The notes under the pieces were generated by a model. The model had not been told where the DNA came from and did no database searches. It was given only the letters and a program-made list of their open reading frames with translations. The translations under genes were made by a program, and so were the position numbers. Below, in pieces: positions 931 through 53,604 of a stretch of 55,082 bases of DNA. Source of the stretch: Nodosilinea sp. LEGE 07298 (GTDB lineage Bacteria; Cyanobacteriota; Cyanobacteriia; Phormidesmidales; Phormidesmidaceae); assembly GCF_015207265.1 (NCBI RefSeq), contig NZ_JADEXE010000011.1, positions 1-55,082 on the forward strand, in the 5' to 3' direction. Position 1 is the stretch's first letter, and every line of letters begins with the position of its first letter.

Positions 931-988
931 GTTTCAGGTATCAGGTTTCAGGTTCTTCCTGACACCTTAAACCCTAAACCTGAAACCC
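931..988. repeat. inverted heptamer-repeat array at the 3' end of the ABC operon
   Basis: Forward 7-mers of the type GTTTCAG (931, 938, 945) are followed after a short loop by reverse-complement 7-mers (961, 968, 975, 982). GTTTCAGGT at 931-939 pairs perfectly with ACCTGAAAC at 978-986. The array stops three bases before the stop codon of the ABC ATPase gene (992-994), so its transcript would end in this hairpin. Other copies lie at 9973-10064 and 51029-51072. Confidence 0.75.
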
Positions 989-991
989 TAG

Positions 992-9972: not shown

Positions 9973-10064
9973 GGTTTAAGGTTCGAGGTTTAGGGTTCGA
10001 GGTTTCAGGTTCAAGGTTTCAGGTTTCAGGCCTGCCGTGAACCGTGAACCTTGAACCCTGAACC
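9973..10064. repeat. inverted heptamer-repeat array between linker gene and tyrS
   Basis: Eight forward 7-mers in unbroken register begin at 9973: GGTTTAA, GGTTCGA, GGTTTAG, GGTTCGA, GGTTTCA, GGTTCAA, GGTTTCA, GGTTTCA. After an 8-base gap come four reverse 7-mers of the form YTGAACC (10037-10064). The two arms can pair in several registers. The array lies between two convergent genes, 40 bases beyond the tyrS stop. This is the largest copy in the window. Confidence 0.85.
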
Positions 10065-22790: not shown

Positions 22791-22946
22791 CCTCTCGACG
22801 GGAATATCAGTAACGGTTAGCTCTTTCTGCTGGGCCTTATTTTTTCCCCATGAAGGTCTCTATCAGGGCTGGAAGGCTTTCCAAAGCGGGATGGGTAATA
22901 TCGGCCTTGCTCAAATCCTCCGCGATATCAGTCGGCTCACCGTTCC

Positions 22947-22973
22947 TGAAACCCAGTACCTGAAACCCTCAAC
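22947..22973. repeat. half copy of the heptamer repeat
   Basis: TGAAACC (22947), CAGTACC (22954), TGAAACC (22961) and a degenerate fourth unit run in register, in the reverse orientation of the heptamer family. No matching forward arm is visible nearby. It lies between the Gfo/Idh/MocA gene and the convergent L,D-transpeptidase gene, 29 bases from the latter's stop. Confidence 0.55.
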
Positions 22974-25277: not shown

Positions 25278-25488
25278 CTGCCAAGCCAAAGATGACGGGT
25301 TAGTGGAGTTCAAAGTTTCAGGTACACGACTGGCCTTAATGGACTCGCAAGAAAATAAGGTAGCTGTTGATCGGACTTCGACTTCGCTCAGCCCTCGATT
25401 CCTGAAGGCTGAGCGAAGTCGAAACCTGGCTACCTGGTACACCATTAATCCGCAGATCCCTAAACTATGACATCTCAAACCTGAACCC
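25278..25488. repeat. compound intergenic repeat cluster (319-bp spacer)
   Basis: The 25274-25592 spacer starts with the 16-mer CTGCCAAGCCAAAGAT (also at 19440). It continues with forward heptamers GTTCAAA and GTTTCAG at 25308-25321, then a 15-bp inverted repeat CGACTTCGCTCAGCC (25379-25393) against GGCTGAGCGAAGTCG (25407-25421), and ends with reverse heptamers TCAAACC and TGAACCC at 25475-25488. Three repeat families are thus nested, with the palindrome between the heptamer arms. Confidence 0.7.
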
Positions 25489-25592
25489 TAACCTGCATTA
25501 ATCCGAGGGCATCTAGGTGTGGGGAAAGAGATGTACACCATTGTTTTATAGCGAAGGTTAGAATCTGTTCGCCTGAATGCCAGGGATGGTGA

Positions 25593-51028: not shown

Positions 51029-51072
51029 GGTTTAGGGTTCAAGGCAACACCTCGAACCCTAAACCTTGAACC
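51029..51072. repeat. inverted heptamer-repeat array between lspA and glgP stop codons
   Basis: Forward units GGTTTAG (51029) and GGTTCAA (51036) face reverse units TCGAACC (51052), CTAAACC (51059) and TTGAACC (51066). GGTTTAGGGTTCAAGG can pair with CGAACCCTAAACC. The whole 46-bp gap between the convergent stop codons is this element, from two bases after the lspA TAG (51024-51026) to the glgP TAG (51073-51075). Confidence 0.85.
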
Positions 51073-53604
51073 CTATTCCCCTGCCACTGGCACCGCCTTC
51101 ACCTTCCAAATATCGCGGGCATATTCGGCAATGGTGCGATCGGCAGAGAACTTGCCGATCCGAGCCGTATTGAGAATGGCCATGCGTACCCAGCGATCGC
51201 GGTCTTCGTAGGTGCGGCTAACGTGCTCCTGGCACTGCACGTAGGCGGCGTAGTCAGCCATCACCATGTACGGGTCATCGACCAGCAGCGAGTCGAGAAT
51301 CGGCAAGAACAGGTCGGGCTCACCGGGCGAGAACAGCCCTGAGGCAATCACGTCCAGCACCCGTTTTAGCTCGGGGTTGGTGTCGTAGTAGTACCAGGGG
51401 TTGTGGCCCACGGCCTTGCAGGCGGCCACCTGTTCGGTGGTGAGGCCAAACAAGAAGAAGTTGTCGGCTCCGACCTCTTCGCGAATTTCTACGTTAGCGC
51501 CGTCGAGGGTGCCCACGGTGAGCGCCCCGTTGAGGGCAAACTTCATGTTGCCGGTACCCGAGGCTTCCATGCCAGCCGTCGAAATCTGCTCAGACAGATC
51601 AGAGGCCGGAAACAGCCGCTGGGCCTGCGACACGTTGTAGTTGGGCAAAAACACCACCTTCAGCCGCCCGGCCACAATCGGGTCGTTGTTTACCACATCG
51701 GCCACGGCGTTGATTAGCTTCACCACCAGCTTGGCCATGGCGTAGCCTGGGGCCGCCTTGCCGCCGAAGATCACCGTGCGGGGCACGACATGGTCGCCGG
51801 GGTTTTGCACCATACGGTTGTACAGCGTTACCACGTGCAGCACATTCATCAGCTGGCGCTTGTACTCGTGGATGCGCTTAATCTGCACATCAAACATCGA
51901 GTCGGGGTTGACCTCTAGGCCCAGGGTGTCTTGGATGTAGCGGGCCAGGCTCCACTTGTTTTCTTGCTTAATGGCCTGCCAGGCGCGACGGAAATCGGCG
52001 TTGTCCACGTGAGCCTCTAGATCCTTGAGGAGATCTAGGTTGGTGATCCAGCTGTCGCCAATCGTTTCAGAAATTAGCTGAGCTAGGCGGGGGTTGCACT
52101 GCAGCAGCCAGCGGCGGGGGGTAATGCCGTTGGTCTTGTTGCTAAATTTATGGGGCCACAGCTCGTAGAAGTCTTGCAGCACCTCCTGCTTCAGCAGCTC
52201 GGTGTGCAGCGCCGCTACTCCGTTAATGGCGTGGCTACCCACACAGGCCAAGTTAGCCATCCGCACCCGCCGCTCAGGGCCTTCTTCAATCAGCGACAGA
52301 CGCTCCAGGCGAGCAGGATCTTTGGGATAGCGCAGCTTGACCTGGTCTAAAAAGCGCTGGTTAATTTCGTAGATCAGCTCCAGGTGGCGCGGCAGCAGTT
52401 TGCCAAATAGGTCTACCGACCAGCGCTCCAGGGCTTCAGGCATCAGCGTGTGGTTGGTATAGCCAAAGGCACGCTGGGTAATTTGCCAGGCGGTTTCCCA
52501 CTCCATGTGGTGCTCATCGAGCAGCAGGCGCATCAGTTCAGCCACCCCGATCGCCGGGTGGGTGTCGTTGAGCTGAATCGCCGCCGAGTCGGCCAGCTTG
52601 GTCAAATCGCTGTGGTCACGCAGGTGCAGACGAATAATGTCTTGCAGGGAGCAGGCCACAAAGAAGTACTGCTGCTGCAGGCGCAGCTCTTTGCCCTGGC
52701 GAGTTTCGTCGTTGGGGTAAAGCACCTTAGTGATGTTCTCAGAGATCATCTTGCTAGCTACCGCCCCAAAATAGTCGCCCGAGTTGAAGGCAACTAGGTC
52801 AAAGGCTTCTCCGGCCTCAGCCTTCCACAACCGCAGAATGTTGACATTCTCGGTACCGTAGCCCGGTACCGGCACATCGTGGGGAATGCCAATCACCGTC
52901 TGACCTGGCACCCAGCGCACCTGGTAGTCGTCGTCGCCGTCTCTGTAGACCTCGGTGTGGCCGCCAAACTTGATCTCGACGCGGTAGTCGGGGCGAGCAA
53001 TTTCCCAGGGATTGCCGTAGCTGAGCCACTTGTCGGGGGCTTCCACCTGGTGGCCCTGGCGAATTAGCTGGGTAAAGATACCAAACTCGTAGCGAATGCC
53101 GTAGCCCACCGCTGGCAGGTTGAGGGTGGTGAGCGAATCCATGAAGCAGGCGGCCAGGCGACCTAGACCGCCGTTGCCCAGACCCGGCTCGGCCTCACGC
53201 TCTAGCAGTTCGTCCAGGTCGAGGCCGCAGTCGGCCAGGGCGTGGCGCATGGTGTCGTAAAGGCCCAGGTTGATTAGCCCGTTGCCCAACTGCCGACCCA
53301 TCAGAAACTCTGCCGACAGGTAGTAAACGGTTTTAGCGCGCTTGTCGGCGTAGGTTTTAGCGGTGCGAATGCGCTTTTGCAGCAGCTGGTTGCGCACGCT
53401 GTGGGCCAGAGCCGTGTAGTAGTCGTGGGCGTTGGCAAATTGCTCGTCTTTGCCCTGCACCCAGTGCAGGTTATTGACCAACGCCTGCTGTATTTGGCTC
53501 ACCTGTGCCTCAGCATCGAGAATGACATCCCCCGCGACCCCTAGCGACAGAGGCACTTCAGCCGCTGTGCTTGAATCGGGCAGACGAACAGATTGCTTAG
53601 CCAT
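51073..53604 (-). CDS. glgP: glycogen phosphorylase
   Basis: GlgP releases glucose 1-phosphate from glycogen; PLP-dependent, cytosolic. 843 residues from MAKQSVRLP (ATG 53602-53604), with AAGGG upstream; an earlier start would add 30 unrelated residues. Signatures: YLSAEFLMGRQLGNGLINLG, LGNGGLGRLAACFMDSL, the C-terminal EASGTGNMKFALNGALTVGT with the PLP-binding Lys in GNMKFALNG, and GANVEI. The protein is of normal length for the bacterial enzyme, without the eukaryotic Ser regulatory site. Its stop codon abuts a heptamer array shared with lspA. Confidence 0.96.
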   Translation of the reverse strand: MAKQSVRLPDSSTAAEVPLSLGVAGDVILDAEAQVSQIQQALVNNLHWVQGKDEQFANAHDYYTALAHSVRNQLLQKRIRTAKTYADKRAKTVYYLSAEFLMGRQLGNGLINLGLYDTMRHALADCGLDLDELLEREAEPGLGNGGLGRLAACFMDSLTTLNLPAVGYGIRYEFGIFTQLIRQGHQVEAPDKWLSYGNPWEIARPDYRVEIKFGGHTEVYRDGDDDYQVRWVPGQTVIGIPHDVPVPGYGTENVNILRLWKAEAGEAFDLVAFNSGDYFGAVASKMISENITKVLYPNDETRQGKELRLQQQYFFVACSLQDIIRLHLRDHSDLTKLADSAAIQLNDTHPAIGVAELMRLLLDEHHMEWETAWQITQRAFGYTNHTLMPEALERWSVDLFGKLLPRHLELIYEINQRFLDQVKLRYPKDPARLERLSLIEEGPERRVRMANLACVGSHAINGVAALHTELLKQEVLQDFYELWPHKFSNKTNGITPRRWLLQCNPRLAQLISETIGDSWITNLDLLKDLEAHVDNADFRRAWQAIKQENKWSLARYIQDTLGLEVNPDSMFDVQIKRIHEYKRQLMNVLHVVTLYNRMVQNPGDHVVPRTVIFGGKAAPGYAMAKLVVKLINAVADVVNNDPIVAGRLKVVFLPNYNVSQAQRLFPASDLSEQISTAGMEASGTGNMKFALNGALTVGTLDGANVEIREEVGADNFFLFGLTTEQVAACKAVGHNPWYYYDTNPELKRVLDVIASGLFSPGEPDLFLPILDSLLVDDPYMVMADYAAYVQCQEHVSRTYEDRDRWVRMAILNTARIGKFSADRTIAEYARDIWKVKAVPVAGE

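Follow-up and report, generated by a model that had tools for sequence, protein, structure and literature searches.

Inverted heptamer arrays at gene 3' ends in Nodosilinea sp. LEGE 07298: candidate RNA hairpins built from tandem repeats

Beyond the end of tyrS in Nodosilinea sp. LEGE 07298, eight degenerate 7-bp units and a closing GG are followed, after the loop CCTG, by four units in the opposite orientation. What kind of element is this, and might the hairpin that its two arms could form in RNA serve the genes that end beside it? We analyzed the stretch of DNA in which it lies ("the window": 55,082 nt, positions 1 to 55,082 of contig NZ_JADEXE010000011.1; the host genome comprises 7.25 Mb in 617 contigs), together with repeats of the same kind elsewhere in this genome and in related genomes. 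The reading that we favor, at a probability of roughly one half, is that the elements are hairpins at mRNA 3' ends that may protect those ends or help to form them, with arms that probably turn over by slippage.

Anatomy, order, and position of the arrays

The arrays of the window are the following (coordinates, strand, description):

931..955, + strand: forward array of the ABC-ATPase element
958..990, - strand: reverse array of the same element, about 1-3 nt from the ABC ATPase stop
9973..10030, + strand: forward array of the tyrS element, with eight heptamers and a final GG, downstream of a phycobilisome-linker-like gene
10031-10034: loop CCTG of the tyrS element, separating eight forward from four reverse units
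10035..10064, - strand: reverse array of the tyrS element, with four heptamers and a distance of 40 nt to the tyrS stop; z of -6.3 to -7.4 on folding
22945..22973, - strand: solitary reverse array with no forward partner, close to where a YkuD-domain gene ends
25308..25323, + strand: forward arm of a split element, past a CAP-domain gene
25458..25491, - strand: reverse arm of the split element, partner of the 25308..25323 arm
51029..51044, + strand: forward array of the lspA-glgP element, starting 2 nt past the lspA stop
51049..51075, - strand: reverse array of the same element, extending into the stop codon of glgP (distance about 0 nt)

The sequence at 9973-10064 reads as an earlier note on this DNA had described it (eight forward units, then four reverse), the sister elements that it placed near 931 and 51029 are present (at 931-990 and 51029-51075), and the distances that it gave to the stop codons, about 3 (ABC ATPase), 40 (tyrS), and 0 nt (glgP), are borne out. 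What it listed as fragments are indeed arrays, but the one at 22947 is a reverse array alone, and those at 25308-25488 form the arms of a single element (25308-25491), the loop of which holds a 134-bp insert with another dispersed palindrome. The 931 element is flanked by co-directional genes (for the ABC ATPase and dihydropteroate synthase), and the 9973 and 51029 elements both lie in spacers of convergent genes. An Rfam search of the window returned one tRNA and no other match; the elements match no known RNA family.

The second palindrome (CTTCGACTTCGCTCAGCC ... GGCTGAGCGAAGTCGAA) is found at several gene ends. Its copy in the window, at 25377-25423, is the one within the loop of the split element, and other copies are at L031 7098-7188, L036 11982-12076, L048 8119-8171, and L069 11676-11728.

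Short tandem heptamers dispersed through the genome (STRR) are known from cyanobacteria, and have been described as direct arrays. The present arrays are like them in their dispersal, in their degenerate 7-bp tandem units, and in the period of 7 within the arms: GGTTYRR tandem pairs (GGTTYRRGGTTYRR) occur 98 times genome-wide, versus six times with the pattern read backwards, and a three-unit pattern with at most two mismatches has 275 genome-wide matches, versus 14 backwards. The GGTTYRR-like unit first proposed is better described as GGTNYVR (GGT plus four looser positions), since GGTTTCA, GGTGTCA, and GGTATAA are found in register too. In contrast to the direct arrays of STRR, the prevailing form here is the inverted pair, with its arms in a fixed order. 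At L040 7924-8137, direct heptamers run for 214 bp with a higher-order period of 21 bp and stop at the end of the contig; this assembly may break at arrays of this kind.

Arm order was assessed in a sample of about 0.6 Mb around hits plus the window, the loci of which were picked by direct tandem units, a choice blind to arm order. The sample holds 43 inverted pairs, and the order is forward then reverse in 43/43; a backwards scan of this sample gave four pairs, in mixed order. Zero reverse-then-forward pairs were found in 26 genomes, but the pattern used for that search was stricter than the one for forward-then-reverse pairs, so the claim of constant order rests on the 43/43 count. The commonest arm consists of four complete heptamers, and GG and CC border the loop, which is most often 4 nt long.

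The preference for gene 3' ends, on which the earlier note had staked its reading, holds across the sample. None of the 43 elements lies within a called gene (the calls come from our own simple, unvalidated gene finder, whose tyrS, glgP, and lspA calls agree with curated families). Of 25 elements in co-directional spacers, 21 are closer to the stop than to the following start; the median distances are 11 and 71 nt, respectively. Convergent spacers have an element in 12 of 68 cases, co-directional ones in 25 of 247, and divergent ones in one of 78 (convergent versus divergent, p 0.0006).

Folding of the arms and their change between species

Compared with dinucleotide shuffles, the 43 elements have a median z of -4.4, and z is below -2 in 39 of them; the arms are paired beyond chance, as had been supposed. 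The three complete elements of the window reach z -4.6 to -7.4 on both strands, and no shuffle was equally good. Own arms pair marginally better than arms swapped among elements (p 0.02-0.14, depending on the length taken); therefore, the pairing derives mainly from the shared heptamer code, which is consistent with the earlier suggestion that the RNA could fold in several registers. Fine co-evolution of the two arms was considered and rejected, given this marginal gain and register-wise tests that were mostly not significant.

The elements have the stable hairpin of an intrinsic terminator, but the U-tract after the stem is missing (TTTT in two of 86 element flanks, versus a background of 4.9% across spacers), and for this reason the elements are not canonical intrinsic terminators. 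The bidirectional terminator that had been suggested earlier is not supported in that sense. No terminator-like site was found between 9800 and 10200. Strong gene-end hairpins other than the elements show no polarity (median G/T content of the 5' arm 0.54-0.55, versus 0.73-0.79 in the elements). We also rejected the G-quadruplex as a common principle: four runs of three or more G occur in only four of the 43 forward arms, and two-G runs are found in 36 of 43.

How the elements change is best seen between the sister species G033 and G034 (about 95% identical; 13 orthologous loci, about 54 kb aligned). Hairpins persist, and at several loci the array length has shifted by 7 or 14 bp (e.g., L192/L223, L200/L220, L195/L212), length changes in the closest species pair being whole repeat units. 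The actual substitutions leave the hairpin stabler than random placement does in eight of nine pairs (Wilcoxon p 0.027; the sample is small, and alignment within repeats is uncertain). Overall, elements change about twice as fast as their flanks, which include coding DNA. Clean gain or loss of a whole element was found at none of the 13 loci in this 54-kb alignment, and 4-bp edge repeats, as expected of target-site duplication, occur at three of 43 elements, versus about 1.7 by swapping. With no duplication above the control and no clean insertion at the sister loci, transposition of a MITE type was rejected; the mobile repeat of the earlier note, understood as a MITE, is not supported, given the same duplication count and the whole-unit length changes.

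Across wider distances, the lspA-glgP site is the most informative. The 16 distinct spacers from the genus have a median identity of 55% (47% for shuffled pairs), z is below -2.6 in 14 of them, and in every one of the 16 the 5' arm is rich in G/T and the 3' arm in A/C, although the genomes are related and these counts are not independent events. The units vary: GGTTYRR heptamers in this genome, GGGTRGRT-type octamers in G034, G031, and G024, GTTTTGA heptamers in G042 and G044, and others in G022 and G026. That the hairpin is kept while its unit is swapped suggests that the shape counts for more than the letters. In another convergent spacer, G025 has inverted octamer arrays in place of the GGGTTTA arrays of this genome. 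In the tyrS spacer, G000, G033, and G034 carry an element and G025 a shorter hairpin; the other relatives have no such element there, and there is none at the ABC site in G022, G025, and G036.

Distribution and known repeat systems

Close inverted GGTTYRR pairs are concentrated in the genus. This genome has 18 of them and four others have 14-25 each, the remaining genomes of the genus have 0-7, and the family's other genera have 0-2; element density differs strongly between species. Phylum-wide, 19 of 386 genomes have any match, and nearly all of these have one or two, except this genome and G215. G215, which belongs to another family, has a 21-bp palindrome (GGTTCGAGGTTTCCTCGAACC) at 13 places, unrelated to the heptamer arrays. 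The octamer family is abundant in the genus as well, and its observed inverted pairs are forward then reverse in 16/16. The sister genomes G023 and G027 have 342 and 297 tandem matches to GGGTRGRT, counts for which the backwards control is uninformative because the reversed octamer is nearly a shifted copy of itself; their octamer arrays are often in inverted pairs in the same order as those of the heptamers (one octamer-array locus is L304 887-1684).

Inverted pairing had seemed less familiar in the earlier note, but the architecture itself is not new: it has been published for Xanthomonas, as have heptamer-built stems for a Nostoc intron. Among the GGGAATC arrays of Xanthomonas, 70-75 inverted pairs with convergent orientation have been reported (Rehm et al. 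2015, PMC4692102). The elements described here resemble those arrays in being made of G-rich heptamers with four units preferred, in being mostly intergenic, in lying near the end of the upstream gene, and in being rare between divergent genes. They differ in the unit itself and in having mostly two-G tracts, whereas the Xanthomonas and Nostoc repeats have three- or four-G tracts that form G-quadruplexes (PMC4692102), and arms with the four runs of at least three G are the exception here. Hairpin retention with unit replacement is seen here and not described by Rehm et al. (PMC4692102). In Nostoc PCC 7120, the GGGGA(C/T)T repeats form few inverted pairs (PMC4692102), in contrast to our elements; the same paper also cites Calothrix heptamers, an example of STRR.

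The group I intron of Nostoc tRNA-Leu(UAA) has a P6b stem with degenerate 7-nt repeats on both sides, with length steps of 7 nt and replacement of one repeat class by another while the fold was kept (PMC4476775). These are likenesses, but P6b is a single intron locus, and the elements here form a dispersed set at gene 3' ends with other units. REPs are likewise palindromes downstream of genes, in convergent or co-directional spacers and plausibly transcribed, but they have 20-40 bp of conserved sequence, end in GTAG or CGTC, and are often linked to RAYTs (PMC3733652). The present elements share the palindrome at gene 3' ends, and they are built of repeats without a fixed sequence; GTAG, or at the opposite edge its complement, lies near the ends of only nine of 43. 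As far as the literature that we compared shows, what is new is the dominance of inverted pairs, a fixed polarity across unrelated units, and the swap of units at an orthologous gene end with the hairpin kept.

Weighing the explanations

The observations of the earlier note are confirmed, and its interpretation is partly supported: among the roles that it proposed, one in RNA stability appears to fit best. We infer that the 3' untranslated region of the transcript would include the element, in both directions between convergent genes, and that selection may act on the RNA. The complementary arrays would fold into a long stem, typically of about 30 bp, with a short loop, and this stem would block 3'-5' exonucleases so that the transcript end is defined or protected; perhaps the hairpin also helps to stop RNA polymerase in a phylum that lacks Rho. 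Replication slippage would lengthen or shorten the tandem arms by whole units, several pairing registers being possible. Because the arms are tandem arrays with several registers, a working hairpin could survive rapid change, even replacement of the unit.

The 3'-end hairpin reading is supported by the order in 43/43 elements, their absence from genes, their proximity to stops, and the median z of -4.4; by the sister hairpins, which are kept and in which substitutions favor pairing in 8/9 pairs; and by lspA-glgP, where the hairpin is kept despite differing units, with a second convergent site swapping its unit. It also gains from the literature, since cyanobacteria have no Rho and many Synechococcus elongatus (S. 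elongatus) ends lack U-tracts (PMC13289151). It is weakened because most of those non-U-tract ends are not strongly structured (PMC13289151), because the U-tract is missing here and some orthologous gene ends are hairpin-free, and because own arms barely outdo swapped arms and elements change at about twice the rate of their flanks.

The main rival, clearly less probable in our judgment but to be taken seriously, is a neutral mutational origin. According to it, slippage would multiply tandem units from short palindromes, template switching between the arms of an extruded hairpin would carry units from one arm to the other, and the arrays would persist chiefly past stop codons, since in other places they would damage genes or promoters; the hairpin would have no function. 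Length changes in whole units, the poor advantage of own arms, the absence of the element at several orthologous sites, and the strong density differences among species all agree with such a neutral product. Against it stand the hairpin kept in nearly all 16 lspA-glgP spacers despite differing units, the substitutions that favor pairing, and the strict polarity across unrelated units. The constant order with the G/T-rich arm first is, it should be said, explained by neither the 3'-end hairpin reading nor this neutral rival.

A further alternative is a non-canonical terminator or pause site, in which a G/T-rich arm, first on either strand, would give a stable RNA-DNA hybrid or a pause, and the hairpin would release the polymerase without a U-tract. 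Polarity is fixed on both strands, in 43/43 heptamer and 16/16 octamer pairs, elements sit at convergent gene ends, and hairpin-plus-U-tract sites are somewhat rarer in spacers with an element (3/36 versus 51/260 without); this deficit is not significant (p 0.11), and we regard the explanation as improbable and a pausing role for the polarity as a guess. Still further down, and very unlikely in our view, is a dispersed mobile family of REP or MITE type that a transposase would move and that would be retained at the ends of genes. The many dispersed arrays with one common unit vocabulary, their strongly varying density among species, and a position that recalls REPs (PMC3733652) would suit it, but the duplication and insertion tests gave it nothing, there is no fixed sequence beyond the unit, arm length is variable, and orthologous sites bear other units rather than being cleanly empty.

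Returning to the 3'-end hairpin reading, its broadest form is a tentative one. A lineage without Rho might mark or protect many of its gene ends by hairpins conserved only in position, fold, and polarity, the unit vocabulary being replaced wholesale, even from 7 to 8 bp, by slippage and copying between elements; structure would be selected with almost no conserved sequence. How Rho-less cyanobacteria end and protect most of their transcripts is an open question (PMC13289151), and the elements bear on it: dispersed gene-end hairpins without U-tracts are defined test sites for cyanobacterial transcript ends. The unit swap between orthologous sites would, moreover, clearly exemplify structure kept without sequence, of a kind that family searches miss.
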